From: Pegea sp. RAD2-039
Taxonomy: Eukaryota > Chordata > Thaliacea > Salpida > Salpidae
Assembly: GCA_034620365.1 (NCBI GenBank)
Contig: JAQGEQ010000296.1
Location: forward strand, 62,001-126,000
DNA: 64,000 nt
Reading direction: 5' to 3'
Every line of letters begins with the position of its first letter. Positions within the stretch are counted from its first letter, which is position 1. A program made the position numbers and the translations under genes. Below are positions 13,013-63,660 of the stretch, piece after piece. The notes under the pieces were generated by a model that did no database searches, was not told the origin of the DNA, and saw nothing but the letters and a program-made list of their open reading frames with translations.

Positions 13013-14602
13013 GCGTCATAGGGTTAGGACAACTTTCTGTTCTCTTTTTAATGATTTAAACAAAAATATAAACTTCGTTTTTTGCCAGACTAACAAGACC
13101 CTTCTACACGGGGTTTATGGACTTTTCCATTCGCAAGTATGTGTCTACCTGGGCTCGAACCCGGGACCTTTAGAGTGGTAGGCGGATGTAACAAACACAC
13201 AGATAATTTGGGTTGTGACAACGATTACATCAAATGTATCAGACGAGTAAAAACTCCTCATCTAAAAACCAGTTTAAAGTGCGAAGGACACTAACTTGTT
13301 AAAATTGATTTAAGAATAGAAGAGTCAAGATCTTCATCTTCATCAGATTGAAAGATTGTCATCCTGTTCTTCATCAAGACACACTCTCTCACCATATTTG
13401 TAAGATAAGAGAGTTTTTGAGGATTAATTACTTCAGGACGTTGTGGAGTCATCTTCTGTTCTATAAGATTACCAGATTTGGATCATAAATCTTTTGAAAC
13501 TTCAAACTATAAATAAAGATTACCATCCATCAAATCAGAAATTAGTTCTTCTGTAAGATGATTTTTATGATAAATAGAAGCTAATATAGAAGCCCAACCA
13601 CCAGATGAAGCAAATATAACAACTGGTATTGACTTTTTCAACATCAAATAAATCGTCTAAAAAATGGATAATTTAAATTTCAGCAAATATTTACTAAAAT
13701 CAATTTCTACCTTTAAGGACTTTTCACCACCTTGTAATAATAAACCAACATTTAAGGATTTTTCGTCTCTTTGTTCATTTCCTGAAATTAATTTTCAGTA
13801 AAAAATATGATTTAGTTAATATTTTCAACAAATAATGTACAACAACTACCATTTCTTCATTTATTTTGTCATTCATCCACAACTTCAGTTTTATTTTCAC
13901 CTCTGCAGTGTTATTATTACTTAAGACCTTTTCATTATCTTTCTGCTCATATAGTTTTGCCTACAGTTATTTGTTGAATAAATACAAAGTTTTTTTATAA
14001 GCCAACTTTCTTTGCAGTTTTATTTGGTTTTTATATTTCAAGTTGGCAATTTGAACCAACTGGCTATTAAAATTAAACTTAATATTTCTGGTTTAAGTAA
14101 AACTTGTTTTTGTTCGCTATAAGAGCTGTAAATTCATCATCTTCAGTCGTATTTTGAATAAAATAAAGAAATGTGTAAATGAAGAATTTTAGGACTTTTT
14201 CAAAACTTGTTTTTATAGAATTCCAATACCCATAACCCAAAATGACCCTCAACCAACTCTGAGACAGAAATGCGGCCCTCAACCACCTCTGAGACAGAAA
14301 TAAGTACCTGAACCAACTCTGAGACAGAAATGCAGCCCTCAACCACTTTTTGGACTAAAATAAGGACCCCAACCACCTCTGAGACAGAAACGCGACCCTC
14401 AACCACTTCTGAGACTGAAATAAGGACCTCAATTTTTATATTCAAAAACTCAAAATTGAGATTTCGAAAATCTATATTTTCCAATTTACTTATTTTCTGT
14501 AAATTTTCAGATTTTTTTATAGATAAAAATTTATAATTCTATAATTATCATTAATTACATTTTTATCTAAAATAACTTTTCAAATTATCCATGAAAGCTT
14601 TT
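13013..14602 (-). pseudogene. Partial duplicate of TRPM2-like intron/exon block
   Basis: Near-identical to 4020-5895 of copy A and 21030-22925 of copy B. It contains the exon with IEQKMTPQR (about 13470-13315), the exon with [12 protein letters not shown] (about 13660-13520), the B-box-bearing repeat at 13020-13310 and a short form of the 30-bp minisatellite (about 6 units against 15-16 in the full copies). It stops abruptly inside the LEAFIG exon at about 14602. Lacking the rest of the gene, it is a duplicated fragment. It lies just 3' of copy B. Confidence 0.85.
14245..14435. repeat. 30-bp minisatellite, locus 2 (short)
   Basis: About six degenerate units of the same 30-bp repeat, inside the partial TRPM duplicate. 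Shorter than its counterparts at 5262-5725 and 22265-22755, which shows rapid copy-number change. Confidence 0.92.
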
Positions 14603-14950: not shown

Positions 14951-17900
14951 CTAGAAGTAAGCATTGTGTCTTTCAGCAACCAAACTGAGATATTCTTGAT
15001 GACTTGCAAATAACTTCAGTTTTCTTTCAACTCTCTTCCATTCAGCTTTACAAGCACCTTCACCAGGCTAAAAATAAAAAGATTGATTTTGTAAACTAAA
15101 AGTTTATCGTCAAGCAATCTGTTTCCATGACAACTCCGTAGATTAGAATCAAATATCAGAAAAGTTTTTGCCGCATATGTAATTGTGTTTTCAACTTTTG
15201 TGGAAATTTTATTTTTATTTTTTTTGGAGATTATTTAGTTTTCGACTAATCATTAATTCGTGGATTTTCTGCGAGTCAAGGTGCTAAATAAAATCGCGTT
15301 TTATCATTTGAGGCTTGTAATAAAGTAACTTTTCTTCAAACCAAAACTTTAAAAACTTTTTATCATCATCTAACGGAAAGTTTTAAAATTTTTGCCGTTT
15401 TTTGAATCGAAAATATTTTTGTGAAAATCGAAAAACTAGGAAGACCTCTAATAAGATGTTTTCAAAGATTGTTCCGTCTCCATCATGATAATTCATCACT
15501 AGAGTCTCTACCCATGATAAATCTGTGTTTCGGAAATCATCACAATATCCTCTAAAAATCTGTAAGAAGATAAGATCAGAAGAAGATCAGATCTCATCAA
15601 AATTACCTCAACTCCTTCAAATTTCAGAAAAAATTTCACTTTTTGCATCATTTCATTTTCATCTTGATTATTTCTACTTTTAATTTTCACTTCTTCAACA
15701 AATTTGTTTCTTAAAGTCTCTGATATACTCTGTCCTGGGTTCACCATTCCCTAAAAAAAAAAAAAATAATATTTTGATTTAATTAATAATTATTATAAAT
15801 TCTACAAAAATTAAAATTTTTAAACAAAATGGTCGATTTCAAATATGGCCCACCCCAGGAATGGCCCAATCATTACTACTACTTCTCAAAATGGCCACAA
15901 ACTCCAAAACTGGTTTTTCCTCGATGTGGACCACCTTTCCACCTTCGTCCCGTTCCCATCTGGTCACAATCGGGTCAGCAGCGTGGTTTGGACCATATCG
16001 TCCCAGCAAACCACGACCAGTTAGTCCAGTCCGTCCACGCGGGTTTCTGTTGATCAAATCTGTTTACTTTGGTCCTAAAATAGTGGACACTAACCTGGGC
16101 AGGAAATCGACAATTTGATATTTGCCCAAGTGACTGGTCCGGTCCACATTAAATCGATAGTCAAAGTTGTTGAAAATCAGTGACACTTGTCTGGCTTTGG
16201 TAGAAGTGGACAGCTCTGTATCGGCCCATTCGTTGTTTTGTAAGATAATTTGGTCAGTGTAGTAAGGTGGTTGGTAGGTGGGCCACGGCACCTGTCCACT
16301 AAACATCAAAACGCGATTTAATGACGTCATCATCTTACCGTCCATGAGACTAGATGGTCAGGAACTTGGAGACGATGTTGGGTTTCTCCAGGGTAAGGAC
16401 TTGTCCGTGATTTGATATGAACTGAAACAAGTAAAAAGTTTTGAAAGAAAAAATTGAATTGTGAAGTTTAAAAAAAAAAGTTAAAAAATGTTGAAATCCA
16501 AAAAAGTTGAAATCCAAAAAAGTTGGAATCCAAAAAAGTTGGAATCCAAAAAAGTTAAAAACCAAAAAAGTTAAAAACCAAAAAGGTATGAAATTTTATA
16601 AAGATTATCACTTGGGTTTGGAGATATTTTAGGAATTGTAGAATTATCTCGAAGAGCTGAAATAATCCACTGAACAGCCTCAGAATTGATCTTCAAATTT
16701 TCTTCAATATTTTTCATTTTTTTTTTCATCTTTTTTTTATCTTCTTTTATCTTTTTCTGAATCGAATCTAACGATCTCATGATCATGTCCAATCTACAAA
16801 AATGTCGTCATCACATCTACAATGACGTCATCTAACGGTCACCTTTTGTCGATTGTGATTTGTATATTAAGATCGAGTCTTTCAGGAGCTAATGAGTTGT
16901 AGACATCGACATTCCATTTAATCCAAAGTTTTAAAGAAGTTTCGTCTTCGGGAAAGACATTACGCTCTTAATGAAAAGATTACAAAAGTTAAAACCCAAA
17001 AAAGTTAAAACCCAAAAAAGTTAAAACCCCAAAAAATTTAAATCCAAAATAGTTGAAACCTAAAAAAGTTAAAACCAAAAAAAGTTGAAACCCAAAAAAG
17101 CTAAAATCTTACTAAAATCATCGTAGATTACTCTACTCCTCATCGGATTGAGTCTTCTCATCTTCCGGTATTGTTTCCGCGATTTTTTCATCAAAAAACG
17201 GATGAAACGATGAATATGTGAGAAAATACTGAGAGGAGTAGGTAGAGTTGGACGATAATAATATTCAAGAGCTAATTCATATAATTGCCGTTTCCAAATT
17301 CGATCAGAATTTTCAATTAAATTATCAAAAGAATATCTAAATGACAAAAATGGTCGTTTTCAGTTTTGCGCGAAAATTTGAAGTTTTCATTGAAATTTAT
17401 TTAATTTTAATTTCATTTATTAATAACTAATTTAGAATAAAAAAAAATCAGATCAATTTCTCACGTAAACATCGCGATCAGAAGATTAAGTAAAAGGATA
17501 TTGGCGAAAAGAAGATATATTGCTGAGATGACGGGGACAGCCGCTTGCTGCTGAGGACATCTATTAGATCCAGATAAAATTTCAGATTCAATCTCGGAGC
17601 AAACAAATTGATCATCATCTTGAAAAAAATTTGGGCCATTTTTGAAAAAGCCATTTTAGTTCTGACTAACTTGGATTATAAATAATCTCATCTAGGAATA
17701 ATTCTCCGTAAATAGTCCAATAAGGTCGATTAAAGACGCCCATCAAAGCAGTTCCAATCCTATTTTCATCTGGATAAAGAAGAGCTTGCCGGACTACACC
17801 ATATGAAATCAGGAAGACAGCAAGGATGAAAAAGAACAGAAAAAGATCCCTAACCTAAAAGAAACTGAATGTTCACGGCCAGTTTTGTAAGAAGTCATTT

Positions 17901-20900
17901 TCGTCGTTTCGATAGATTTTAACTTAAATTTTAAAATTTTAAATTTTTTCGATTTTTTAAAATCAATTTTTTGAAAGTACTTTTTGGAAATAATTCAAAA
18001 TTTTTTAAACAAACCATTTTTCCGACCATAATAATAGTCGGTCCTAAAGTTCGAATTTTTGCGAATATATGCAGTAAACGGATACAATAAATTGAAAAAG
18101 ATGTACACAAGATAATTCTACAAGCATTCATGGAATAAAATCTGTCAAAATACACGACTGTGATTGGCTGAAATATTAACCAATGAAAATACCTTAAAAT
18201 AAAACCAATTAAATATAAGATCAAACCAAAAGCATCTAATTTATTCCAAGAATTTCTAATCCATATTTGAAATCTTTTTGATAAACTTTTGTCGCGTTTT
18301 CGTTCTAAGATCTACAGATGATTTTAAAATACAGATTCGAGATTTTTTAAAGATATACCTCATTAACTTCATCACTTGCTAAAATGATGATCCAAATTAG
18401 AAGGATTATTTCAAAGATTGAAAGACTTCTTGGTGATGTTTTTAAGTTAAAGAGAAGAACAATTGAAAAAAGTGATAAAAAAATCTGAAAATTTTTTGAA
18501 ATAAATTTTTTTGGGGGATTTTTGGGATATAAATCTGACCATATAGAAAAACGTGTTGAGACCAAATCGAACTAAAGGAGATGTGTAGAAGTTGTAAATC
18601 TTACTTCGATAACTTTCATCTCTTCTTCTTGTAATTCCATTTTCTTCATCTGAAAAAAAAGTAATTTTTAAATTACAATTTTTAAATAATTCCATTTAAA
18701 ATTCAAAAATTACAAATGACGTCACAAGTTATGACGTCATCACATTCACCATGATGATCATTTGGTTTGAAATTGATGATGAAGGGAATAAAAGGAGGAC
18801 ATATAGATGATAGAAAGATGTTAAATGCAAAAGTTTCATCACTGATAGGTCCTCTCCAAATATCCGCAACAACTCTTTGTACTGACGAATGAGCAATCAA
18901 ATCCTAAGATACAAAAATGTATTTTTACGATAATGGTGTTTTACGATATTGGCTTTTTATAAAAATGTTTTTTTTTATAAAAATTGATTTTTACAAAATT
19001 GATTTTTACAAAAACGGCTTTTTACGATAATGGCTTTCTACTAAAATGGCTCGTTTCATCAATGAATTTTTACAGAAATAATAAGAAAATATTTACGATG
19101 TCTTTTGAGTCGGTGATGAAATTGAGGCAAGTTAGATTTCCCCATTTCCTCAAACTTCTAGTTAATAAACAGCAAGTCTTCTTCTCATCTTTATCAAAAC
19201 ACTCATCTAGAAGACCGATTGTCAATTGTTTGTAATGAGAACAATTTTCCGAAGCTGTTTTCTGAATTAAAAAAAAATCGAAAAAGAATTCCAAAAATGA
19301 ATTTTTTTAGGAAAACATCTGATTTTTTTTTGGGGGGGGGGGGCCAAAATAATGTCTATTTATGGATTTTATGAAAAGTGAAAGTTTTCTTTAATTGATA
19401 AAAAGTATTTTTTTAATTTAAAAACAAAACTTATTTCCCGAAACATTTTCCGAAAAGGGAATTTCCCGAAGATGAACATTTTTTTCAATTTTTCATTTTT
19501 TGGGGAAACACCGAAAAAATACTTTTTTTATCTGCAAACTTCAGGGGAAACCCCAGATATGAAATTTTTGCGATTTTGCAAAAATTAATATCTTTTTTTG
19601 GAAATTTATTGAGTTTTCATCACTCACATCTTCTTCCTGATTCCGGAACTTAGAGATCGATTTTAAGATCCGAAAAGCAGCTGCTGAAGCTGAAACTTGA
19701 TCTGGAACCATCTTCCAGATTACTAAAGACATTTTCATCCGATTGAAGATCAAAGAAAGGAAGAAAAGCTCAATGAAAGTGTTGAACTAAAAAAGTTTCA
19801 AATTATGATTTTAAAACGATTTTTTTTGTATTTTTTGGAACTTTTAATTTTAATAAATTATATTTTCAATTATCTTTTAAAACTTGTCTATTTTAAACAA
19901 AAACTTTCCAACAAACACTTACAAATACCACAAATATATTTTATATCTCAAAAAATTGCTTATAAAAATTGTGTTAAAGAGTTTTCAGTTTGTATATAAT
20001 AAAAAAATAATTATAATTAATTATTCTCTAAAATCAAGATAATTTTTTTAAGATTTATCTCAATTGTGATTGCTACAAATTGCTAATATAAAATATTTTT
20101 AAAGTTTAAAATTTATAAAAATTATCGCTGCTAGATGGCGCTAGAAACGATAAAAGTTTTGAATTAAATAATAAAAAAATAATTAAATTTCTATTTTAAC
20201 TTATACAGTTTTTCTATTCTTTTCATATCAATTAAATTAGAAGACATAAAAACATGTTTCATAAAAGCAATAGCTAAAAGAATTTGCTAGCTAAAGCCAT
20301 TAGTTGAATAAAATAACTACAAAGTAGAAAAAGAAATTTAAAATTAATTTAATAGAAATTTGAAATAACTTACATTTTGTGAATTATTTATTTCTTCGTT
20401 ATATTCTGCTAAAACTGGATAATTTGATATAAAAGCTCTTCCTAGCAACTTCTTCTTAATTCTATTAAATATTCAAAATCTCCTTCTCAAAAATATTCTA
20501 AACTTACCGAATTAAATGAGTAATCCTAATCTCTTCATCATCATTTAAACCAGATAAATGATTAAAAAATGTTGTGTCTTCTACGAGATTAAGAATCTTT
20601 GTATAAATCTCTAAAAGATTATTATAACTTAATGAAAATTGAACTTGATAATCTAGAAATAATTCTACAAACTCATGTTGATCCTACAAATAAATAATAG
20701 AATCAAATAAAAAGTTTTAAACTTTTGTATATTTACTTCAATAAATGCATCAACTAAATGTTTCTGTAAAGAATCCCAACTCGGAAATCTATCTTCTTCA
20801 AAGATGTATTTGCGAGCAATATCTCCTCGGTTCCAAGCAAGACACAGCTTCAGTTGCTCTTCGACAAGAGAATCATCTTTAAAATTAAACAATTAAAATT

Positions 20901-23900
20901 AATTTTTATTTCTTACAAATTTTTTTAAAGAAAATTTTGGGTTTGTTTATTCAAAGAGCTTTTTATTTGACAATTGAGTTTTCTTTTGAATATTTTCATT
21001 TTATTGTGAAGAAAATTCTGTTTTCTTATATTTAAGGTTAGGACAACTTTCTTTCCTATTTTTAATGATTTAAACAAAAGTATAAACTTCGTTTTTTGCC
21101 AGACTAACAAGACCCTTCTACCCGGTTTTTATGAACTTTTCCATTCGCAAATATGTGTCCACCTGGGCTCGAACCCGGGACCTTTAGGGTGGTAGGCGTA
21201 TGTGACAAACAGACGGACAACTTAGGGTTGTGACAATTTGATTACATCAAATGTATCAGACGAGTAAAAACTCCTCGACTAAAAACCAGTTTAAGGTGCT
21301 GAAGGACACTAACTTGTTAAAATTGATTTAAGAATAGAAGAGTCAAGATCTTCATCTTCATCAGCTTGAAAGATTGTCATCCTATTCTTCATCAAGACAC
21401 ACTCTCTCACCATATTTGTAAGATAAGAGAGTTTTTGAGGATTAATAACTTCAGGACGTTGTGGAGTCATCTTCTGTTCTATAAGATTACCAGATTTGGA
21501 TCATAAATCTTTTGAAACTTCAAACTATAAATAAAGATTACCATCCATCAAATCAGAGATTAGTTCTTCTGTAAGATGATTTTTATGATAAATAGAAGCT
21601 AATATAGAAGCCCAACCACCAGATGAAGCAAATACAACAACTGGTATTGACTTTTTCAACATCAAATAAATCGTCTAAAAAATGGATTGTTTAAATTTCA
21701 GCAAATATTTACTAAAATCAATTTCTACCTCTAAGGACTTTTCACCACCTTGTAATAATAAACCAACATTTAAGGATTTTATGCCTCTTCGTGAACGTTG
21801 ATTTCCTGAAATTAATTTTCAGTAAAAAATATGATTTAGTTAATATTTTCAACAATTGATGTACAACAACTACCATTTCTTCATATATTTTGTCATTCAT
21901 CCACAACTTCAGTTTTATTTTCACCTCTGCAGTGTTATTATTACTTAAGACCTTTTCATTATCTTTCTGCTCATATAGTTTTGTCTACAGTTATTTGTTG
22001 AATAAATACAAAGTTATTTTATAAGCCAACTTTCTTTGTATTTTTATTTGGTTTTTATATTTCAAGTTGGCAATTTGAACCAACTGGCTATTAAAATTAA
22101 TTATAATATTTCTGGTTTAAGTAAAACTTGTTTTTGTTCGCTATAAGAGCTGTAAATTCATCATTTTCAGTCGTATTTTGAATAAAATAAAGAAATGTGT
22201 AAATGAAGAATTTTAGGACTTTTTCAAAACTTGTTTTAATAGAATTCCAATACCCATAACCCAAAATGACCCTCAACCATCTCTCAGACAGAAATGCGGC
22301 CCTCAACCACCTCTGAAACATAAATGTAGCCCTGGACCACCTCTGAGACGGAAATGCGGCCCTCAACCACCTCTGAAACATAAATGCAGCCCTCAACCAC
22401 CTTTAGGACAGAAATGTGGCCCTGGACCACATCTGACAGAAATAAGGAACTCAACCACCTGTAAGACAGAAATAAGGACCTCAACCACCTCTAAGACATA
22501 AATGTGGCCCTCAACAACCTCTGAGACAGAAATGCTGCCTTGAACCACCTCTGAGACAGAAATTCGATCCTCAACCACCTCTGAGACAGAAATAAGGACC
22601 TCAACCACCTCTGAAAAATAAATGTGGCCCTCAACCACCTCTGAGACAGAAATGCTGCCCTCAACCACCTCTGAGACTGAAATAAGGACCTCAGCCACCT
22701 CTGAAACATAAATGTGACCCTTGACCACCTCTGAGACTGAAATAAGGACCTCAATTTTTATATTCAGAAACTCAAAATTGAGATTTCAAAAATCTATATT
22801 TTCCAGTTTACTTATTTTCTGTAAATTTTCAGTTTTTTTGTATAAATAAAAATTTATAATTCTATAATTATCATTAATTACATTTTTATCTAAAATAAAT
22901 TTTCAAATTACCGATAAAAGCTTCTAGACTTGCTCGAAAACTGATCTCTTTTCCAAAACTTCCTTCCGATCCATCGTCCACAAGAATGAAATGAGAGTGA
23001 TCCTTATTAAGAAGAGCTGATCCTATAGGAGGTTTCTCCATTGGATACTGAGCATTCTGAATTATGCAAATTAGTTTGAAGTGACTAAAATGGCGTTTTC
23101 TGAAAATGGCCTACTTACCGCGTTTATATCATTTCGTGAAGTTATAAGAAGTTTGTGGCGATTATGAAGCGTTCCCCAAGTTGCTATGCCAACAGCGATT
23201 ATCTGCAAAATTATTTTTTTTTGTCAAATTTTTAATTTTAATCAGAAAATTTTTTTTTATCAGTATGTTGAGTTTTTGTCTAATTTGAAAAACTTTTGGA
23301 TGCTGTTAATCATCCTGAAGATCTTTGGATGTTGATCTTAAAGACTTTTTAAAGATCTTCATTCAAAAGATCAATCATCTTAAAATTTATCAAAAATATC
23401 CAAAAACTTTCACTACTTTTTGAGATTCATTATTGACATGAGAATATTCATTAACAGCTCTTCCGACGTGATACATAACTCCACTATCAGTTCCTCCGGA
23501 TAGAATCCAAGATCCTAAGAGCAGATGACGTCATCGATCAACTAAATGACGTCACAAAACTCACCTGTACTTTGAGCTGCTTTAATAAGATTTTTACTAA
23601 AAGATCTCATTAGATTGTCGTTCATATTAAAATTAGCGGCGCTTCCGGTCACAGAGATGATTAACTTCGGTGTTCGAAGTCCCCATTTCTCTCTCATATA
23701 CCGGAAGACGAGTTCCGGTTCAGTTTTACTACCAATACGAATATACTGAAAAAAAATTTGAAAATTTATTAAAGAATTTTGACTATTTCTCTGATAGCAC
23801 GATGGTTAAGCGGTAGGAATTTTGTCTGCTGCGTTGGAGGTTCGGGTTCGATTCCCGACTGATGCAAGGTATTTTTTAAGCAAAAATTTGATGAAAATAA

Positions 23901-24374
23901 ATTGTTGAAAACTACTAAGCAAATAATTTTAGTAAATTATTAATTAGTCATTCAATATTATTACCTGAAAACTTTATGTATTTTTATATGAGTGTTTGTT
24001 GAGAGAAAATATTTAAAGCTGAGCATAAAAGAACAAAACATTTTGATCTGGATTTAAAATATTTAAACAATTTTTCAAGCTTTTCAAAATACCAAAAGAA
24101 CAAAACAAAAACTTTTTGGCCAAAAATGAAATAAAAGTAATATGCAATTAGAATAAAGGGAACTTCTTTTGATCTATAATTTTAAGTTTCAAATAGATAT
24201 AATAAATTTGAAGGTTTTGATTTATCAATTTTATAATTATTGATCCAAAAAATTATTTTATAAAATTTTATAAAAACTAACTTTGGAAACACTTTCTTTT
24301 GATCCGACAAACTGAACTTGTCCATAAGCATTAGTTGGAGTCACGCCATCAGATAGCTTGATTTCAGACTCCAT
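14951..24374 (-). CDS. TRPM2: TRPM2-like cation channel with NUDT9-type Nudix domain, copy B (complete)
   Basis: Complete minus-strand gene of about 27 exons, ATG at 24374 and TAG at 14951. Exon order matches copy A: SLOG/MHR region (about 23746-21540), MHR3/4 (20878-19100), transmembrane region (18900-17480), TRP helix (about 17340-17115). Copy B also shows the C-terminus. A lysine-rich coiled-coil exon (about 16795-16605) ends in [12 protein letters not shown], like the TRPM2 C-terminal coiled coil. A NUDT9-H domain follows: SRTSPYPGE (about 16420), [12 protein letters not shown] (about 16285), [20 protein letters not shown] (about 16055), DWAIPG (about 15850), the Nudix box (about 15750-15690), [20 protein letters not shown] (about 15540) and [19 protein letters not shown] before the stop. 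In TRPM2 this domain binds ADP-ribose to open the channel. It resembles soluble NUDT9 more than human TRPM2 does. The Nudix box REFxEE is NKFVEE here. The SL-type acceptor lies at 24391, 17 nt before the ATG. Function is inferred from family. Confidence 0.92.
16490..17105. repeat. Two short-period repeat arrays in TRPM2-B introns
   Basis: Arrays of CCAAAAAAGTTGAAAT-type units at 16490-16590 and 16985-17105, separated by the coiled-coil exon and the exon at about 16975-16840. Only the second has a counterpart inside the window in copy A (172-305). Confidence 0.82.
18905..19060. repeat. Short repeat array (ATGGCTTTTTACGAT) in TRPM2-B intron
   Basis: About eight imperfect units around TGGCTTTTTACGATAA. 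The copy A counterpart (2115-2180) has only two or three, so the array expanded after duplication. Confidence 0.8.
22265..22755. repeat. 30-bp minisatellite, locus 3 (TRPM2-B intron)
   Basis: About 16 units of the same repeat at the position equivalent to locus 1. Unit variants differ from locus 1 (more CATAAATGTGG-type units), so the two arrays have diverged or been partly rewritten since the gene duplication. Confidence 0.94.
23797..23870 (+). tRNA. tRNA-like sequence antisense in TRPM2-B intron (probable pseudo-tRNA)
   Basis: Duplicate of the element at 6759-6832. A and B boxes are both unchanged (one change just outside the A box), consistent with copying as part of the segmental duplication. 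Confidence 0.5.
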
Positions 24375-25800
24375 GATTCAAATGATACCTCCTACAGATA
24401 CCTAAAACGCTTTCATTTAAACCATTTAATATTTACCAACTTTAAAATAATAATTTATCATCATTCAACAAATTTCTATTTAATGTTTCCAAACAATTAA
24501 ACAAATTTATATTTTTCACATTTAATTTTTTTTAAAACATCGCTGCGAGTAACAAATTCTAGATCCTAAATATCACAATAAAACTTCATAAACAAAATAA
24601 ATAAGCAAAAAGGCGTAATTAATAACAAGTTATAAATTGAAAACAAAATAAGAGAAGAAAATTAAGAAACTTGTCAAAAAAAACAAAATTTTCAAAAAAA
24701 TTCATTTAAAAACAATTTAGTTGTTTCAATTTATTTACAATACAAAATAAAACATCAATTATATAAAATTTGAAAAATTTTCAAGGTATGAGGAAGAAGT
24801 GAAAAAAAATAAAAATTTAAAACATTTCAATGATAAAAGCATGCAAAATAAGCTTAATCATATCACCATGGTCGTAGCGAGGTAATGGCTTTTTTACAAT
24901 TCTGCGCAAAATATTTGCATGATAAATTTTTAAAAAGAATTTAGAATTACAGGTTAAAAGCTACTTAAGATTAAAATATGTAAAACATAAGCTATATAAA
25001 AATATAATAGTAATAATAAGATGATATTATAATATACAAGTGAAAAGATTTCTCCAAAATTAATTACTCATCTTTTAAAGAATAACTTACAATTGAACAC
25101 ATCAATAAACATTAGTTGATTATATTGTAAAAACGATAAATTTGAAAAAGTTTCAACTTAATAAGTCTTTTTATGGCTTCTGCCAAAAACGAACAAACTA
25201 TAAAGCTCGAGGAGATATTATAAAAAGCATTTGTTGCCCATGCAGAAGAATTTCGATCTTAATATGACCATTTTATCTCACCTAGCACTTTGTTTACTAA
25301 TTATCTATTTTTTTCAATTAAAATTCAATTTTTCATTTATTTTAGTAAGATATTTGAACCATAAAAGGTTTCAAGCATTTTGTTTCATAAAAAATGAATT
25401 AAAAACTTGTTGATATCAATAAAGCAATATTTTATTTTCTACTAACCATTTTGCGATATATTGATGTAGATTTATATGAACAAAATTACCATTTTTTTAC
25501 AAATTGTTGCTTACTTGTTCCTTTACTAATTTAAACTTCATTATCAGATGAATTGATTCAAATGGGAGATTTCTGATCAAAAATATTGGAAAAAAGCCAA
25601 TTTATCTCACTTAATAACTAACTTTCTTTACTAAACATCTATTTTTTCAATAAAAACTGAATTTTTTATTTCTTTTTAAATAAAACTTTAAATAATTTCA
25701 ATGGTTTAAAATTTGGAAAAGTTAGAAAATAAAAGATAGAATAAATATTTTAGTTATTATACTTTTATTGAACCAAAATATAATTAGGTTTTTAAATATA
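24375..25800. other. 5' flank of TRPM2-B
   Basis: No gene seen. Contains the leader of TRPM2-B, a copy of its own 3' flank (24690-24790), and the block 24890-25340 shared with 8910-9350. The rest is AT-rich. Confidence 0.7.
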
Positions 25801-26247: not shown

Positions 26248-26400
26248 CGCCCTCAACCACCTCTGATTTAAAAATGCGGTCCTCGACCCCATCTGAGATT
26301 GAAATGAGGCCCTCGACCATCTCTGATATAGAAATGAGTCCCTCGACCACTTCTGAAAGATGTGGTCCTCAACCACCTCTGAGACTAAAATGTGGTCCAA
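26248..26400. repeat. 30-bp minisatellite, locus 4
   Basis: About five degenerate units (CCCTC(A/G)ACCACCTCTGA) between the cysteine-rich fragment and ZCCHC7. Confidence 0.85.
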
Positions 26401-33686: not shown

Positions 33687-36264
33687 CTAGGAAGACTTTT
33701 GTAATTTCGATGGAATATCGGGCCCTGTAACAAACGGTAGTCCGGAAAATGTCACTCGTTTCCGGTAAGCTTCGTAATCATCCCCGAAGAAGTAAAGAAG
33801 CAAAACTTCTTCATTATTAATTCTCTTGCTTAAAAAAGTCCAAGAAGCAGAGAGAAATATAAGGAAAGAAACCGGATTCATCAACATAATCTGCAGATGA
33901 AGATGAAGAACATGGTTTAGTTGGTTGTTACAGGAGTTATTGAACAACTAAAACAAAAATTGAAGTAAATGATGAAATAATAGAATGCATCAACCTATTA
34001 AAATATTCAAAAATTCCCCAAAGTGGCCCTCGACCACCTCTAAGACAGAAATGCGGCCCACGACCACCTCTGGGACGAAAATGCAGTTCCAACCACCTCT
34101 GAGACAAAAATGTAGCCCTCAGCTACCTCTGAGACAAAAATGTAGCCCTCAGCTACCTCTGAGACAAAAATGTAGCCCTCAGCTACCTCTGAGACTAAAG
34201 TGCGGCCTTCGACCAGCTTTGAGACTAGAATGCAGCCCTCAACCACCTTTGAGATAGAAACACGGCCCTCAACCACCTCTGAAACAAAAATGCGGCCCTC
34301 AACCACCTCTGAGACAAAAATACGGCCCTCAACCACCTCTGAGACTAAAGTGCGGCCCTCAACCACCTCTGAGACAAAAATGCGGCCCTCAACCACCTCT
34401 GAGACAAAAATGCGGCCCTCAACCACCTCTGAGACAAAAATGCGGCCCTCAACCACCTCTGAGACAAAAATGCGGCCCTCAACTACCTCTGAGACTAAAG
34501 TGCGGCCCTTAACCACCTCTGAGACTAAAATGCGGCCCTCAACCACCTCTGAGACAAAAATGCGGCCCTCAACCACCTTTGAGACTAAAGTGCGGCCCTC
34601 GACCAACTTTGAGACTAGAATGCAGCCCTCAACCACCTTTGAGATAGAAACACGGCCCTCAACCACCTCTGAAACAAAAATGTGGCCCTCGACCACCTTT
34701 CTCTAATATCTCTTTAAGTACTTCTAAACAAATATCTGAAACTTTGCAAGAATGAAGTTATAAAAACCTGAGTGGAAACACTCCAAAGAAACCAACCACA
34801 ATAAGAAGGATGTCTGATGAAAGAGTAGATCCCATTGGTGATGAGGACATGATCTTTGCGCTTGATGAACCGGATGTAGTGAGAGAAGTTTTCACCTGAT
34901 CAAATATTTTATTGATAATTTTGTGAATTTAATAGAAATTTAAAGTTTGAAAATTTCTTAAAATCTAAATTTGAAACTTTAAATTTCTAAAAACTTTTTA
35001 GATTTAGAAATTATTAAAAGTTATTAATATGTATATATATATAATATATATAATATATATATATATATATAAGATATATAATAATTTTAAGATTATAAAT
35101 TTAAATGTTTTATTTTATGGATGAAATTTGAAAACTTTAAAAGAAATATTCAATTTCTAAATAATTAAAGTTAAAAATTTTTTTGTTAAATGTTAAATGA
35201 AAATACTTTGAAGTTTAAAAAAGTTTAAAGAAATAAAAGTATAAAAGAAGGAAATAAAAAATTATAAGAAGAATTATTTGATTATTTTTAAGTTTCTGAA
35301 AATAAACTTAAAATGAAACTACCTGCAGTTGCCATTGCTAATTTTCTGATAAAGTCTCCAAGCAAACTCATAAATAGTCCAAAATAAATCAAAATATTAT
35401 TCAATTTCCATTCTAAACATAAAAATACTCAAACAAAAGTTGATTAAACATCAAATATTTACCTGGGAAGTAATATATAGTGAGAAAATACTCAAAAAAT
35501 GAGAAGAACATTGCCAAGTTATACTCCCAGCTATGGTTTATCAAAAATGATGAAATATCTAAAGTAGATGGCTGGAAAAGTGATGTACAGAAATATTCAC
35601 CAAAATGAAATAAAGAAATTAAACAAATGTGAAATCCAATAGGCTTATAAAATCCATTTTTAATTGTAGTGATGTAAAACCCAATATGAAAAAGTAAACT
35701 TAAAATATAAGCTCTTGTGGCTACCTATAAATAAATATTTATTATTATTATAAATTATTAATTAGCTTAGTTATTATAAATGTAATGAAATAAATAATTA
35801 AATACATAATTTTATAAAATAAAATTTTCAAATATTTTAATAAATTTAAAAAGATTTACCCAAATAAAATATTAAATTAAAATACATTTAGAAATGAAAA
35901 ACAAATTTATCAATTTAAATATATATATTTAAAAATAATAAACATTCTGAATATCTGAATTATTATAAACATTTTTAATATTTAATTAATAAGTCAATAA
36001 GTTAACTTTGAAAAACATTAAAATTATTGTTTCAATTTGTAAGTATTCATTAAATTAAATTTATATAAAATGATAAAAATACAAACTTACAGGAAATAGA
36101 TTATTATTCTTTGTGATTGAGAATAATTTCCCATGAATGACGAGGATAAAAAATAGATAGATGAGAATTGGAAAAAAATGTTTAAAAGTGAATAAAAAAG
36201 ATTCTAAGGCTACAAGTGTAACAGCTAACAAAGAAAACAAACAAACTTTTGAATTTGCTTTCAT
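33687..36264 (-). CDS. ICMT: Protein-S-isoprenylcysteine O-methyltransferase
   Basis: Five exons, 36264-36091, 35724-35463, 35412-35323, 34895-34768 and 33890-33687, joined in consistent phase to give 285 residues (human 284). ICMT methylates the C-terminal prenylcysteine of CaaX proteins in the ER membrane. Visible family blocks: LFHFGEYFCTSLFQP, FLINHSWEYNLA, GENFSHYIRF, GIYSFIRHPSYCGWF (the SAM-site RHPxYxGW motif) and the C-terminal FFGDDYEAYRKRV followed by GLPFVTG. Several hydrophobic segments fit the polytopic fold. An acceptor (TTCTTTTACAG|AATT) lies 18 nt before the ATG. Intron 4 is filled by a 30-bp minisatellite. Confidence 0.95.
34023..34700. repeat. 30-bp minisatellite, locus 5 (ICMT intron 4)
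   Basis: About 22 tandem units, the largest and most regular array of this family (consensus GGCCCTCAACCACCTCTGAG + ACAAAAATGC). It makes up most of the 877-bp intron. Long frames on both strands are repeat artefacts. Confidence 0.95.
35030..35075. repeat. TA microsatellite in ICMT intron 3
   Basis: Runs of TATATATA with an interrupted structure; a similar tract is at 32478-32510. Confidence 0.85.
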
Positions 36265-48179: not shown

Positions 48180-51348
<3,169 letters not shown>

Positions 51349-53139: not shown

Positions 53140-54460
53140 GATTAAATTATTATATTGAGTATGAAATTTACGTTTATATTTATTTATTTCAATAAATGCG
53201 AATAAATGCGAAGGAGGGTGCCTGAAAAGAGCTCCTCCCGTTAACACACATTCTTACAAATAATATTTATTAAGTTAGAAATATAGAAAGCAAAAGATGT
53301 AACATTTGCCATTTCAGTAGACCTCAAAGCATATAACAGTGAACAATTATATAGAATGTTAATAATATTAAAAAGTGAAAAAGAATCACAGTTTAGAAAT
53401 GACAATGTTGACAATATTATAACGGTTCAACTTCTGCTTGAACAACGCGAGCGACTTCGACATGGCAATGTCTGATGGCAGCTGGTTCCATGTATTAATT
53501 GTGCGGTATGAGAAAATATTCAATCTGATTAATGTATCAGGTAATATAGGCTCATTAAGATGTAACGTGTGTCGTCTGAGCTGATATAACTTGAGGAAAG
53601 GACTAATGGAAAAGAAATTATCGAATTGAAGGTCGATTAAATTGTGGATAATTTTTTAAATAAGAATTAAGTCGTATTTAATCCGTCAGATTTCCAAAGT
53701 ATCTAAATTGAAGAGACTGAGACGATGTTTATAACTATCATATCTAATATTAAGTTTCCTACATACTAATCTTGCAAATGTGGCCTGAACAGACTCGATT
53801 TTTTTGATATCACTAACTTGATATGGCATCCATGCACTGACATTGTATTCAAGAATTGGACGTACGTACAATTTGAAAAGATTGATAAAAAAGCATGGGT
53901 CCTTAGAATTAAAGGTCTTTATAATAGGGAAGACAAGGTTGATTAATTTTCCAAAGATTTTGGAAACATAATTGTGCCATTTAAAGTCAGATGATAGGGC
54001 AATGCCAACGTCTAGGACCGAAGATACTCGTTGAATAAAAAATCTATTGATGCAGTATTGGTTCAAGGAATTTGCAGCTGGTATACGAGAAAAAGTTATA
54101 AGTTCAGACTTTGTGGGCTGGATTCTGAGCTGCCAGTTCATAGACCAGTTTTCTACAGTGTGTAGTGCAGTTTGAAGTTTTGAAGGATTACAAGATAATA
54201 GCTTGATATCATCTGCATACACAAACACACTGACATCATCTACTGCTTCTGATGAGGTCTTCAATGTTCAAGGTTATGTGACTAGAAGTAGATAAAGATC
54301 TCTCTACACGAGTTTGTTGGGTTCTACCTGATAGGTAATCTTCAATCCAATGTAGGATAAACCTGTTGATTTTTAAGTTTTTTAATACAGTAATGAGCAG
54401 ATTGTGTGGGACAGAACCAACGCTTTAGCAAAATCGAGGTATATGATGTCATATGATCAG
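53140..54460 (-). mobile_element. Decayed non-LTR retrotransposon (reverse transcriptase and 3' UTR)
   Basis: The minus strand encodes part of a LINE-type reverse transcriptase: DIIYLDFAKA (about 54445), VPHNLLITVLKNLKINRFIL and WIEDYLSGRTQQTR (about 54400-54310), then after a frameshift and a missing segment the catalytic FVYADDIKLLS (about 54220), SSDFKWHNYVSKIFGKLINL and YVRPILEYNVSAWMPY (53850). The open part is 53686-54264. The 3' end (53160-53450) recurs at 10110-10345, 32420-32480 and 63100-63600 and ends in an A/T-rich TTTATTTATT tail. Broken frames and the missing N-terminal part mean it is inactive. Jockey/CR1-like order is an inference from motif style. Confidence 0.9.
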
Positions 54461-56784: not shown

Positions 56785-57690
56785 ATGTTTTTTCGTTCAT
56801 TATCTCGATACTGGCTTCTGATTGGTCGAAATTATTCACAATTCACTCCAAAACACACATCACCTACAGATCTTCAACTGGAGCAACTGCAGAATTTCAT
56901 CGACACCAAAAACAAGATCTTCATCCTTTCAGGGGCGGGTTTATCAACAGAATCAGGGTTACCAGATTACAGATCTAAAGATGTAGGGCTTTATGATCGT
57001 TCAAACCATCAACCGATCCAACATCATCAGTTTGTGTCTTCAGACTTCCACAGGAAGAGATATTGGGCTAGGAATTATTCAGGATGGGACTCTTATGAAG
57101 AATTCCAACCAAATTCAGCTCATTATTGGTTAAAAGAATTAGAAGATAGTGGGAAGGTGATTAGTCACGTGACGCAGAATGTTGATGGTTTATCTCGTAA
57201 AGCTGGAATTAAACACTTAATAGAACTTCATGGTTCTATGTTTCAAGTGAAATGTCTTGATTGTGATGACGTCACATCACGTCATCAATTCCAGAAGAGA
57301 TTAAAACTTCAAAATGTTGATTGGAAAAGTGAGGTATTAGATTGGAGACCGGATGCTGATGTAGATGTCTCAGATGAGGATTGTTTGAAGTTTCAAGTTC
57401 CTCCATGTGATGTTTGTGGTGGAAGATTGAAACCAAATGTTGTTTTCTTTGGTGATTCAGTTGATAGACATTTAGTTGAAGATTTATATCGTAAAGTTGA
57501 ATCAAGTGATGGTTTATTAGTTTGTGGATCATCTTTATATGTCTGGTCAGGTTATCGATTCGTGCGACACGCGCAAGAGAATCAAGTTCCAATTTTTATT
57601 ATTAATATCGGTGAAACTCGCGCTGATTCTATTTGTACTTTTAAAATTCAATCTTCTATTTCTCAAACATTAAATCAAATTTACATCTGA
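56785..57690 (+). CDS. SIRT4: Sirtuin 4, NAD-dependent deacylase (mitochondrial type)
   Basis: Intronless 301-residue class II sirtuin. Motifs: GAGLSTESGLPDYRS (50-64, NAD site), RYWARNYSGW (92-101), TQNVDGL (130-136), catalytic His in ELHG (149), zinc cysteines at 157/160 and 208/211, KPNVVFFGD (216-224), CGSSL (247-251) and NIGETRAD. The block KDVGLYDR…RPIQHH-like and RYWARN is specific to the SIRT4 type, which removes acyl groups or ADP-ribosylates in mitochondria. The N-terminus (MFFRSLSRYWLLIGRNYS) is Arg-rich without acidic residues, fitting a mitochondrial presequence. An acceptor (TTTTTACAG|ATTT) lies 37 nt upstream of the ATG at 56785. Confidence 0.96.
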   Translation: MFFRSLSRYWLLIGRNYSQFTPKHTSPTDLQLEQLQNFIDTKNKIFILSGAGLSTESGLPDYRSKDVGLYDRSNHQPIQHHQFVSSDFHRKRYWARNYSGWDSYEEFQPNSAHYWLKELEDSGKVISHVTQNVDGLSRKAGIKHLIELHGSMFQVKCLDCDDVTSRHQFQKRLKLQNVDWKSEVLDWRPDADVDVSDEDCLKFQVPPCDVCGGRLKPNVVFFGDSVDRHLVEDLYRKVESSDGLLVCGSSLYVWSGYRFVRHAQENQVPIFIINIGETRADSICTFKIQSSISQTLNQIYI

Positions 57691-57845
57691 TGACGTCATC
57701 GTTCTTACAGATGACGTCATCCTTTTTTTTAATTTTAATGACGTCATCAGCTGTTTATTTGACTTTTATCTCAACAATTTTTTTCATTTTAGGGACTTTT
57801 TAGGTTTTAAAATATTAAGGATCTCAAAAATTTGTTACAAAACAA
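57691..57845. other. SIRT4 3' flank with three TGACGTCATC copies
   Basis: Three TGACGTCATC(A/G/C) palindromes lie within 60 bp directly after the stop codon (57691-57750). Nothing else is recognised. Confidence 0.6.
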
Positions 57846-57849
57846 AATC

Positions 57850-58510
57850 TTTATGATAAAGAGGATGTCTTTAAGATTAAGAAGATATTTTTAAGATGAA
57901 GAAGATGTCTTTAAGATAAATAAGATGTCTATAAGATAAAGAAGATATTTTTTAAGATGAAGAAGATGTCTATAAGATAAAGAAGATATTTTTTAAGATG
58001 AAGAAGATGTCTATAAGATAAAGAAGATATTTTTTAAGATGAAAAAGATGTCTTTAGGATAAAAAAGATATCTTTAAGATGAAGAAGATGTCTTTAAGAT
58101 AAAGAAGATGTCTTTAAGATAAAGAAGATTTCTTTAAAATAAAGAAGATGTCTTTAAGATGAAGAAGATGTCTTTAAGATGAAGAAGATGTCTTTAAGAT
58201 GAAGAAGATGTCTTTAAGATGAAGAAGATGTCTTTAAGATAAAGAAGATATCTTTAAGATGAAGAAGATGTCTTTAAGATGAAGAAGATGTCTTTAAGAT
58301 GAAGAAGATGTCTTTAAGATGAAGAAGATGTCTTTAAGATAAAGAAGATATCTTTAAGATGAAGAAGATGTCTTTAAGATGAAGAAGATGTCTTTAAGAT
58401 GAAGAAGATGTCTTTAAGATAAAGAAGATATCTTTAAGATAAAGAAGATATTTTTAAGATGAAGAATATGTCTTAAAGATAAGGAAGATGTCTTTAAGAT
58501 GAAGAAGAAA
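57850..58510. repeat. 20-bp minisatellite (GAAGAAGATGTCTTTAAGAT) 3' of SIRT4
   Basis: About 32 tandem units with variants (AAGAAGATATTTTTAAGATG and so on). Purine-rich on the plus strand. The inner part (58090-58440) is the most regular. Confidence 0.94.
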
Positions 58511-58763
58511 ATAAGATCACATCATCCTCATATTAACTTTATTTTGACTTTCATCAGTATTATATTTATAATTAATTATTTATGATTATATATACTGAAA
58601 TAGCTTCAGTAGGTAGTTTGAAAAGTGCCAAAAATGGCTTTTTACTTTTATGGAATCCAAATAACAATTTTCTTATTTTGAGTGTTTGAACTTCAACTCA
58701 ACTAATTATAATTACTAAAATATTTATTAATTTTTCTTGATATAAATCATCAATAATTCCAAG

Positions 58764-58892
58764 TTTAATCACGTGACCAACTTTGAATCACGTGACCAGC
58801 TTTGAATCACGTGACCAGCTTTGAACCACGTGATCAACTTTGAATCACGTGGCCAGCTTTGAACCACCTGATCAACTTTGAATCACGTGATC
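58764..58892. repeat. 19-bp repeat with CACGTG E-boxes upstream of LARP6
   Basis: About seven units of AATCACGTGACCAGCTTTG, most with an intact CACGTGAC. It ends about 255 bp before the LARP6 ATG. It could act as a cluster of E-boxes for bHLH factors or simply be another minisatellite. Confidence 0.85.
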
Positions 58893-59146
58893 ATCTTCTA
58901 CTTCTTCTACTTCTAATTTTTATTAATTTTCCTCAATAATGTTCAAAATATTAAAAAAAAACTTTTTTTTCAGATTTTAGTTGTTTTTTTTTGGGAATTT
59001 GTTTCCGAAATTTAGTAAACAGGAAAAAGAAAACCAAATTAGAAAAAAGTAAATTTCCACATTAACTAATTTCCTAATATTTTCAGCAACAATTTTTTGT
59101 ATTTTTTTACAGATTATCTTTTATATAAATTAATCTTTTTATTAAT

Positions 59147-61730
59147 ATGAGCTTATCAACAACTGACCAACCAGAAGCTCAGTTGGCTGTCGATTCAGCC
59201 AATAAATCTCCAATTAAACCAACTCCAGTAAGTAAAAAAGGTGAATTAAGGTGCTGAGGAGTTTTTGATTCTTTTTTTTTAGGTGATCAAAATTCAGAAT
59301 GAGTCTTTATTTACACCTGTCAGTAGCGGAGCAGAAGATGAAGACGTAAGTTGCTATTTCATTACAAAAATACGATTTGATGACGTCACAAACAGGTGAA
59401 ACCTTTCTCACAAGTTTTAAAAGAAGATCCAACGTGGAGGGAACCTTCAGAAGATCTTTGTGAGAAGATAAGAGATCTTTTAGAGATGTACTTTTCAGAT
59501 GAAAATCTCGCAAAAGTAGTTGATAATTTCTGGGCCATTTCCGAAAACGACAATTTTGTTTCTCAGGACAAATTCTTGTTGAAACATGTCAGGCGGAATT
59601 CTGTTGGATTTGTTTCAGTGAAATTATTGACAAGTTTTAAAAAGTTGAAATCTTTAACAAAAGCTGATTGGAAATTAACAGCTTATTCGATTACCAAATC
59701 ATCTGTCTTACAACTTCATAAATCGGTTCGTATGTGACGTCATCAGTTCGTATGTGACGTCATCAGTTCATGTGTGACATCATCAGCTCGTGTGTGAAGT
59801 CATCAGTTCATGTGTGACGTCATCAGTTCGTATGTGACGTCATCAGTTCATGTGTGATGTCATCAGTTCATGTGTGACGTCATCAGTTCATGTGTAATGT
59901 CATCAGTTCATGTGTGACGTCATGAGTTCATGTGTGACGTCATCAGTTCATGTGTGACATCATCACCTCGTGTGTGAAGTCATCAGTTCATGTGCGACGT
60001 CATCAGTTCGTATGTGACGTCATCAGTTCATGTGTGATGTCATCAGTTCGTGTGTGATATCATCAGTTCATGTGTGACGTCATCAGTTCATGTGTGATGT
60101 CATCAGTTCGTGTGTGACGTCATCAGTTTATGTGTGATGTCATCAGTTCATGTGTGACATCATCAGTTCATGTGTGAAGTCATCAGTTCGTGTGTGACGT
60201 CATCAGTTCGTATGTGACGTCATCAGTTCGTATGTGACGTCATCAGTTCGTATGTGACGTCATCAGTTCATGTGTGACGTCATCAGTTCGTATGTGACGT
60301 CATCAGTTCATGTGTGACGTCATCAGTTCGTATGTGACGTCATCAGTTCATGTGTGATGTCATCAGTTCGTGTGTGATATCATCAGTTCATGTGTGACGT
60401 CATCAGTTCATGTGTGATGTCATCAGTTCGTGTGTGACGTCATCAGTTTATGTGTGATGTCATCAGTTCATGTGTGACATCATCAGTTCATGTGTGAAGT
60501 CATCAGTTCGTGTGTGACGTCATCAGTTCGTATGTGACGTCATCAGTTCGTATGTGACGTCATCAGTTCGTCTTTAAACTTCTTTTTTCGGTTTAGGGCG
60601 AGAAAGTTCGTCGCGTCAAGCCTCTTCCTGAAATTGATCTTCCTGTGACGTCAGTGAAGACGATCCTCTTCAAACCAACATCCGATGTTGAAATGGATGA
60701 GGTTTGAACAAAACCACCCACCTTGTCACTTTTCTCATTCAATGACGTCATCAGCTGACAAGTCGCTTCTCGGTGTTCGGGAAGTTGGCGACGATCCGGA
60801 AAGTTCCTACAAATAAAGAAGTTCCTCTGGATTTAAGGAATCATGTGATCAAGCATCCTGAGTTAGGAACAACTCTTTGTGTCATTGTTGAATACGAAAA
60901 GAGTGAAGATGCGCAGGTGATGACGTCATCGCTTCGATATATGATGTCATTGCTTCGAGACATTTCAGATGGCGCAGCGGATGTTGACGAAAGAAGCAAA
61001 ATTGAAGCCAGTTGAAGAAGTCTTTAGTTTGTTGGGATCTGGACGAAATCCCAGGAAACAAGCTGCTAAGCAACTAGTTCGTAATCGTGATGGTTGCTAT
61101 GATAACAGTGCTGATGAGTCATCACCATGTGTTAGGTGACGTCATCATTTCAGCTTAATGACGTCACTAAGCGGTTGTTATGGTTACAGCTCTCGAGAAG
61201 GAAGTCCGATGTTGAGGCGAAAGAATAATTTTTATTCACCAAAATCGAGGAGTCGAAACGGAAGTCGTGACGTCAGTCCGGAAAGCGGTTTGTTTTTATG
61301 ACGTCATATGTAGTAGTGATGACGTCATCACTTTTCAGGTCGTTTCGCTGTTCGCGCTAACAACAAGTTTAATGTCATAAAGTCTACGTCACCGCTGGTT
61401 ACTACGCATGTAAATGACGTCATCATTTGAGAGATTCGGTTTGTGTGACGTCATCATTTTGTATAGTTAAGTCCCGATGGAGGAGGATCTGGAAGATCGA
61501 CTCCTCGCATGTCAAGTCCTTGGATGTCAAGAAGATACGCTTCTGCTGATGCATCGCCAGTTTCGACTCCGGGTTCAAGTCCAGCATTTGGCCGGAAAAA
61601 TCCAGCTGGAATCCCGCAGGGAGTTGTGCGATTACCCGATGGTCCACCAAGTGGCAAAATTAAAGGATTTCAATTTCCACGTCGCTTCCAACTCCATAGC
61701 GCCGCTAGTGGTGACGCAACCACCGAATGA
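59147..61730 (+). CDS. LARP6: La-related protein 6
   Basis: Nine exons (59147-59227, 59283-59345, 59396-59725, 60597-60701, 60755-60916, 60969-61135, 61190-61287, 61339-61409, 61467-61730) in consistent phase, 446 residues (human 491). LARP6 binds structured 5' UTRs such as collagen mRNAs and links them to translation. The La motif spans about residues 60-155 (LEMYFSDENLAKVV, DKFLLKHVRRNSVGFVSVKL, LTSFKKLKSLT). An RRM-like part with SVKTILF, SVFGKLATIRK and LCVIVEYE follows. The C-terminus has the SUZ-C-type VVRLPDGPPSGKIKGFQF. An Asp/Leu insertion (KVVDNFWAISENDNFVSQ) interrupts the usual spacing before DKFLLKH. Most introns are 49-57 nt and contain TGACGTCA; intron 3 is expanded to 871 nt by a 20-bp minisatellite. 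An acceptor (TTTTTTTACAG|ATTA) lies 34 nt before the ATG. Confidence 0.95.
59726..60575. repeat. 20-bp minisatellite (TTCGTATGTGACGTCATCAG) filling LARP6 intron 3
   Basis: About 42 near-perfect units beginning at the donor itself (…AAATCG|GTTCGTATGTGACG) and running to about 20 bp before the acceptor. Variation is confined to a few positions: CGTATG/CATGTG, GACGTC/GATGTC/GACATC. A long block around 60000-60210 recurs around 60320-60530, so there is a higher-order repeat of about 320 bp. Confidence 0.96.
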
Positions 61731-63040: not shown

Positions 63041-63049
63041 TTACGAATT

Positions 63050-63660
63050 AAATACAACTTAATTCTTATTTTTGAAATTATCCACAATTTAATTGACCGT
63101 AAATTCGATACTTTCATTTCCATTAGTCCTTCCCTCAAGTTATATAAACTCAGACGACACACATTACACCTTAATAAGCCCATATCACCTAGTACATTGG
63201 TCAGAGCAAATTTTTTCTCATACCATACAATTAATACATGGAACCAGCTGCTATCAGACATTGTCATGTCGAAGTCACTCGCGTTGTTCAAAAAGAAGTT
63301 GAACCGTTATAATATTGCCAACATTGTCACTTCTAAGCCATTTTTCTTAATATTACTATAATTCTGTAAATTATTTACTTATCTTATATTTATATTTTAT
63401 TAAATTTATAATAATTAACTAAGTATTATTATTAACATTCTATGTAATTATTCACTGTTATATGCTTTGAGGACTACTGAAATGCCATGTGTTACATCTT
63501 TTTCATTCTATATTTTTAACTTAATAGTTTTCATTAATTTCATTCTATGCCATCAGACATTTGTCATCTCGGAGTCGCTCGCGCTGTTCAAAAAGAAGTT
63601 GAATCGTTATAATTATCCTAATACTGAGTAGTTTTAGTCGAGTAGTTTTGTGAGTAATCA
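63050..63660 (+). mobile_element. 3' part of a non-LTR retrotransposon, two nested or tandem 3' ends
   Basis: The plus strand reads the C-terminal end of the same element as at 53140-54460: frame pieces ISPSLKLYKLRRHTLHLNK and FKKKLNRYNIANIVTS (about 63110-63330), then the 3' UTR. A second, shorter piece (TCTCGGAGTCGCTCGCGCTG, KKKLNRY again) is at 63555-63625. 5'-truncated and broken. Confidence 0.82.

Follow-up and report, generated by a model that had tools for sequence, protein, structure and literature searches.

The question raised by this locus is how a single intron of a LARP6-like gene came to consist almost wholly of one 20-bp unit, and what the short sequence at the heart of that unit is doing there. 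The gene lies in the window, i.e., the whole stretch of 64,000 nucleotides that was analyzed, and was modeled from PDB matches, the La domain, and the reading frame. The top two PDB matches of its product are La-related protein 6, and the La domain is found in the spliced 429-aa frame with an E value of 2.6e-17. The features of the gene, with intron lengths in the order of this model and with the occurrences of the octamer TGACGTCA, the core of the repeated unit, are as follows:

59147..61730, + strand: LARP6-like gene, 10 exons, 9 introns, 429 aa
59228..59282, + strand: intron 1, 55 nt, without TGACGTCA
59346..59395, + strand: intron 2, 50 nt, one TGACGTCA
59516..59566, + strand: intron 3, 51 nt, open in frame, without TGACGTCA
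59726..60596, + strand: intron 4 (the array intron), 871 nt, phase 0, TCG/GTTCGT ... GGTTTAG/GGC (slashes mark junctions)
59726..60565, + strand: array of 42 x 20 bp, majority unit GTTCATGTGTGACGTCATCA
60566..60596, + strand: 3′ tail of 31 nt, with six repeat-like nt, then a pyrimidine-rich stretch and the acceptor
60702..60754, + strand: intron 5, 53 nt, one TGACGTCA, 3′ end TGACGTCATCAG
60917..60968, + strand: intron 6, 52 nt, one TGACGTCA, 5′ start GTGATGACGTCATC
61136..61189, + strand: intron 7, 54 nt, two TGACGTCA, 5′ start GTGACGTCATCA
61288..61338, + strand: intron 8, 51 nt, two TGACGTCA
61410..61466, + strand: intron 9, 57 nt, two TGACGTCA

The array intron had been called intron 3 in a sequence-only reading of this DNA. 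It is the fourth, because the in-frame intron of 51 nt at 59516–59566 had been missed. The 17 residues that this intron would add are absent from the PDB LARP6 chains, and the La domain scores 62.9 bits in the full model without them versus 48.2 bits in an earlier partial model that had them. For intron 9, an acceptor at 61471 was found to break the reading frame, and the one at 61466 was taken. A TGACGTCATCA copy begins with the stop codon of the gene, TGA at 61728, and TGACGTCA is also seen, by eye, inside the coding sequence of LARP6 and of a SIR2-family gene. Elsewhere in the window, inverted transposon-like copies at 53268–53686 and 63043–63526 are 76% identical and look reverse-transcriptase-like by eye; Rfam, at its thresholds, gave four tRNAs and no other match. 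Neither a COX1 search nor one with a bdelloid spliced-leader pattern had any match.

The ends of the array intron are set by a PDB La-related protein 6 alignment that crosses the junction and by the 429-aa reading frame. Within these ends, the earlier description of about 42 repeats of a 20-bp unit proves accurate: the array has 42 units, each exactly 20 bp, with 89% matches, and its first base is the first base of the intron, so the repeat does start at the donor. As a tandem array of a 10–100 bp unit inside an intron, it is an intronic minisatellite. One unit plus the 31-nt tail makes 51 nt, as does 871 nt minus 41 units. The other eight LARP6 introns range from 50 to 57 nt, and the length peak of reliable local introns is at 45–54 nt (79 of 187). 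The window contains 108 copies of TGACGTCATCA at up to one mismatch, versus 0.65 by chance; many of the copies are in the array. Variation among the units lies mainly at CpG. The central CpG is lost in 18 of the 42, and position 5, also in a CpG, has A in place of G in 23 of the 42; position 7 has 31 G and 11 A. An identical run of 256 nt is repeated in the array at a lag of 320 bp, as expected either from unequal exchange or from a choice made in assembly.

We suggest, with a probability of roughly three in four, that the array arose by local tandem duplication in an existing short intron, and that its core is a genome-wide DNA word, likely a maintained bZIP site. The starting state would have been an ordinary short intron of ~51 nt in which TGACGTCATCA was already present. 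A local stretch of 20 nt would then have been duplicated in tandem, up to 42 copies, by replication slippage or unequal exchange, and the repeated TGACGTCA words may have assisted as short homology. The outermost donor and acceptor would have remained in use, so that growth between them would be nearly neutral. Other introns would have undergone the same process independently, with a different linker in each case. As for the core, it would be a sharply defined, double-stranded, genome-wide DNA word rather than a splicing or intron element, concentrated in the non-coding parts of gene-rich DNA.

Arrays of this kind recur in the genome. Exact TGACGTCATCA triples at 20-bp steps gave 85 matches, falling by our own count into 15 places; when gaps of 1–30 between copies were allowed, TGACGTCATCA-type triples gave 774 matches, of which 85 make two 20-bp steps. 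The proposal that single-copy introns and array introns are stages of one process is likely, and the pattern recurs at these 15 places and in the 774 triples. We dropped 20 bp as the sole array period: among the matches listed of the all-spacing search are 23 places with periods of 13–40 bp, four of them pure 20-bp, and 20 is the commonest by little. No linker is exactly shared among the 15 places; on average 3.2 of 9 letters are common, with a maximum of 7. At least six linker pairs among the 15 places are alike at 7 of 9 letters, so that the independence of the arrays may be incomplete; by our reading, this likeness is partly that of donor letters.

Flanks were read at 13 of the 15 places, with intron boundaries set by hand at 10 and the acceptor in view at nine. 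The donor-to-array distances in the 10 array introns are 0, 0, 0, 1, 4, 4, 5, 6, 7, and 16 nt, and the array ends 7–26 nt before the acceptor in eight of the nine and 117 nt before it in the other. Collapsed to one unit, the nine measure 51, 50, 51, 49, 47, 64, 34, 31, and 157 nt, where for the short arrays the count could be set one unit higher or lower; the 157-nt case is the array intron of locus L038. Among array introns of the gene finder, 7 of 23 collapse to 40–65 nt (rounded), and 135 of 237 array-free introns are that long. Some finder boundaries are wrong, including those of the LARP6 array intron, and weight is therefore placed on the ten hand-set introns. Gene identities at the array places come from Pfam for an M17 peptidase, a guanylate cyclase, and a kinase, and from the frames read for the rest. 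A dynein at one place has a Pfam MT stalk match just under the cut-off; the dynein heavy chains here are presumably axonemal, a kind that Caenorhabditis is not known to have.

Tandem arrays of other kinds are also present. Two 20-bp arrays in the window have a consensus without TGACGTCA; one is near a TPI-like gene (by eye), and the other is in the stretch from the SIR2-family gene to LARP6:

48792–49507: 35 copies of a 20-bp unit
57848–58508: 33 copies of a 20-bp unit

A 30-bp minisatellite unit, CCCTCAACCACCTCTGAGACAGAAATGCGG, is common, with variants, to six places in the window, unlike the linkers of the TGACGTCA arrays, which differ:

5263–5708, + strand: 30-bp minisatellite
14246–14432, + strand: 30-bp minisatellite
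22270–22754, + strand: 30-bp minisatellite
26249–26398, + strand: 30-bp minisatellite
34025–34698, + strand: 30-bp minisatellite
50711–50968, − strand: 30-bp minisatellite

Very long minisatellites lie in higher-GC stretches of two sampled loci, L011 (4752–6808, 103 x 20 bp) and L027 (4631–7074, 174 x 14 bp).

The core is a far more general feature than the array. In the 105.7-Mb assembly, TGACGTCA occurs 27,792 times, or at about 263 per Mb, versus 969 for the reversed-word control. Counted on both strands genome-wide, TGACGTCATCA occurs 16,229 times versus 79, and TGATGACGTCATCA is found at 1,972 places versus none. An array-free sample of 251 kb has 175 TGACGTCA sites versus 1.75 expected, i.e., 100x, in a sample where 4 of the 20 loci come from a motif-rich stretch and five further loci were chosen for arrays. 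That is, TGACGTCA is a palindromic octamer far above genome-wide chance, as HIP-like words are. The next palindromic octamer with more than 10 copies in the 251 kb, TCACGTGA, reaches 12.6-fold. A literature search, mostly outside subscription journals, found no report of comparable TGACGTCA abundance in an animal.

The word is sharply bounded. Genome-wide, the three one-letter neighbors pooled as TGBCGTCA number 3,680 versus 3,379, or 1.09x control. In the 251 kb, seven of the 12 one-letter neighbor classes stand at 0.0–1.1x expectation and five at 1.9–7.4x, as follows: CGACGTCA (7.4x, 8 sites), TTACGTCA (4.0x, 25 sites), TGATGTCA, a CpG-decay product (3.5x, 37 sites), TGGCGTCA (2.2x, 3 sites), and TGAAGTCA (1.9x, 26 sites). 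A decaying repeat family should leave neighbors of every kind, G-to-A included, and the G-to-A neighbor TAACGTCA is found 6 times versus 6.3 in the same 251 kb. In the sample, the summed neighbor excess is about one-third of the number of exact sites, so that a recently spread set of copies, now decaying, is possible. In 132 of 174 sites an A precedes TGACGTCA, which gives its commonest extended form. Between paralogous copies in the window, differences are found at 758 of 14,308 columns that lie outside the core and at 0 of 80 inside it; as these copies overlap one another and contain few sites, we treat the comparison as weak support. The tandem gene copies themselves, at window positions 1–9360 versus 16823–25343, and 13019–14432, have 91–98% identity; the TGACGTCA sites common to them are identical, and the remainder differs at 5.3%.

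Outside arrays, the second palindrome, TCACGTGA, has the 12.6-fold excess given above; CACGTG occurs in 19–20-bp arrays, in one case sharing its units with TGACGTCA. The places are as follows:

Window 58759–58897: second-palindrome place
L012 8778–9144: second-palindrome place
L015 8339–8514: second-palindrome place
L052 267–559: second-palindrome place

Where does the core lie? Reliable short introns have 51 TGACGTCA sites in 10.7 kb, distributed over 37 of 169 introns, one of which is a 4-site array intron. With arrays masked, there are 91 sites in 71.7 kb of all predicted introns, 57 in 65.0 kb of predicted exons, and 27 in 114.8 kb of predicted intergenic DNA, classes that were drawn by a home-made two-strand gene finder, in which some genes are still merged, and by our own reading. 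This version, with arrays masked, replaced a finder that had fused genes on opposite strands and taken arrays for exons. One cluster in the window shows the core outside introns:

57688..57749, no strand assigned: three TGACGTCA sites directly after the SIR2-family gene

In 223 introns, the sense-oriented flanks of TGACGTCA divide 28 versus 26. They are strand-symmetric, which suggests that any action of the word would be that of double-stranded DNA. Pairs of TGACGTCA 12–42 bp apart number 5,745, a mean of 185 per spacing. Spacing 20 has 466 pairs, some of them from arrays, and spacings 17 and 18 together have 351. For six local pairs outside arrays at 20 bp, the mean number of flank letters in common is 8.8 of 24, versus 7.5 in random pairs; the 95th percentile (12 letters) is reached by two of the six and missed by four. 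The excess of 20-bp spacing, together with the unlike flanks of four of the six pairs, is unexplained by plain duplication.

By sequence, the core is a putative bZIP site: TGACGTCA is the published CRE consensus (PMC551538) and thus of CRE/ATF type, and our guess is that its abundance comes from a maintained site of this type. In fission yeast, M26 sites, ATGACGT, are bound by Atf1-Pcr1 and stimulate meiotic recombination (PMC6827382), and this heptamer is contained in the commonest extended form of TGACGTCA. The available portions of these CRE and M26 sources mention neither such abundance nor intron-filling arrays (PMC551538, PMC6827382). One alternative is that the array as a whole has a function at the DNA level, its bZIP sites being densely clustered and kept by selection as an intronic enhancer, an insulator, or a meiotic hotspot. 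The identity of the core with the CRE consensus, the excess of the octamer over chance while seven of 12 one-letter neighbor classes show none, and the excess of 20-bp spacing would all agree with this. We nevertheless consider it improbable, as the central CpG is gone from the 18 array units noted above, and as, in loci not picked for arrays, TGACGTCA is present at 4 of 55 array places and absent from 51.

A more specific proposal came with the sequence-only reading, namely, that introns are seeded by a short unit that brings a donor and an acceptor with it and then expands, much as an introner would. It was based on GTATGT as a donor-like sequence in every unit and CATCAG as an acceptor-like sequence at every unit's end. 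GTATGT is present 11 times in the 42 units. CATCAG fares better, with 40 occurrences. Scored against 155 local introns, the donor actually used, TCG/GTTCGT at 59726, is at the 41st percentile. The GTATGT at 59730 is at the 1st percentile among the 155 local donors and, by reading, out of frame with the acceptor; the inner donors TCA/GTTCGT (16 units) and TCA/GTTCAT (20 units) are at the 15th and about the 0 percentile. Retention of one unit in the reading frame leads to a stop codon. The commonest unit-end acceptor is fair, at the 21st percentile, and three splice sites of LARP6, the acceptor at 60754 and the donors at 60917 and 61136, overlap or abut the motif; some link to splicing is therefore possible. 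The neighboring intron at 60702–60754, intron 5 here, ends TGACGTCATCAG/CTG exactly as described, and the single core copies ascribed to the other introns of the gene are borne out for six of the eight, with one or two TGACGTCA each, but not for the two that have none.

Seeding would accommodate the fair acceptors, the 37 of 169 reliable short introns that contain the core, the introns that begin G/TGACGTCA or finish TGACGTCATCAG/, and the 7 of 9 letters common to some linkers. However, no exact linker is common to any two of the 15 places, predicted exons and intergenic DNA carry the core too, the core is strand-symmetric in introns (28 versus 26), the inner donors are weak, and the array intron minus 41 units has the usual length. 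Several arrays without TGACGTCA, with periods of 11–33 bp, lie inside introns as well. Introners have in common a long consensus that includes the splice sites. A repeated sequence within many introns is a point of likeness; what is common here is 8–14 bp, and the linkers differ. We therefore regard seeding by a splice-competent unit as very improbable for these arrays; that an intron originated long ago from such a unit is possible.

That the palindromic copies pair in the pre-mRNA and join donor to acceptor, such that expansion aids splicing, is scarcely credible to us: the intron is predicted to fold at −284.9 kcal/mol versus −260.5 in 20 shuffles (z −4.8), and the minimum-energy fold pairs base 4 with base 845 of 871, which would bring the intron ends together, but good folding is expected of any palindrome array, in the centroid base 10 is joined to base 117 and no pair spans more than 525, bridging is needless in the many core-bearing introns of about 50 nt, and the flanks have no strand bias.

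Local tandem duplication around a genome-wide word can be set beside known systems. Intronic minisatellites in general have short tandem units, a local origin, and a length that is expected to vary. The present case differs in that some units hold a genome-wide octamer and in that the array nearly fills its intron. Among described structures, the closest is the amphioxus "mirage" minisatellite of the Adh3 and globin genes, where, as here, tandem repeats are found at intron ends (PMC3087553). Many mirage units contain splice signals, regular splicing is said to be undisturbed, crossing-over is invoked, and a model of intron gain is proposed (PMC3087553). Mirages span the exon–intron boundary (PMC3087553), whereas in our ten arrays the repeat match continues into the exon over 0 nt in LARP6 and 0–2 nt in the other nine, and a junction-spanning reading of the arrays was rejected for that reason; at L036, the exon end TCACAT is similar, by eye, to the usual unit. 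The available part of the mirage source mentions no genome-wide word (PMC3087553), and the arrays here have TGACGTCA. The satellite probe Ca_SR8 of Caenorhabditis auriculariae contains TGACGTCATCAG, possibly by coincidence (PMC13370393).

The nearest statistical relative of TGACGTCA is HIP1, the highly iterated palindrome GCGATCGC of cyanobacteria, which has been linked to methyltransferases; HIP1 one-off sequences are said to be common in many genomes (PMC4390886). Both are 8-bp palindromes far above genome-wide expectation. HIP1, however, is bacterial, whereas TGACGTCA belongs to an animal genome, is densest in introns, and has 7 of its 12 neighbor classes at background. By analogy with M26, stimulation of recombination would be a speculative route for the word to amplify itself. 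Along these lines, we tentatively propose, as something we would not yet wager on, that selection or biased repair may keep the exact octamer at its almost 28,000 places, as a eukaryotic counterpart of HIP1, and that the octamer may promote its own local amplification, repeatedly turning short introns into arrays of the word.

By itself, the LARP6 case is that of a very short intron filled by a minisatellite, for which 51 nt serves as an internal yardstick of growth. The core is more surprising than the array; one must ask what could keep tens of thousands of short sites uniform in an animal. It also raises the question of whether DNA-binding sites can drive the birth of minisatellites. Both the uniformity of the sites and minisatellite birth are testable in this genome, because single copies, pairs, and arrays are found in it side by side.
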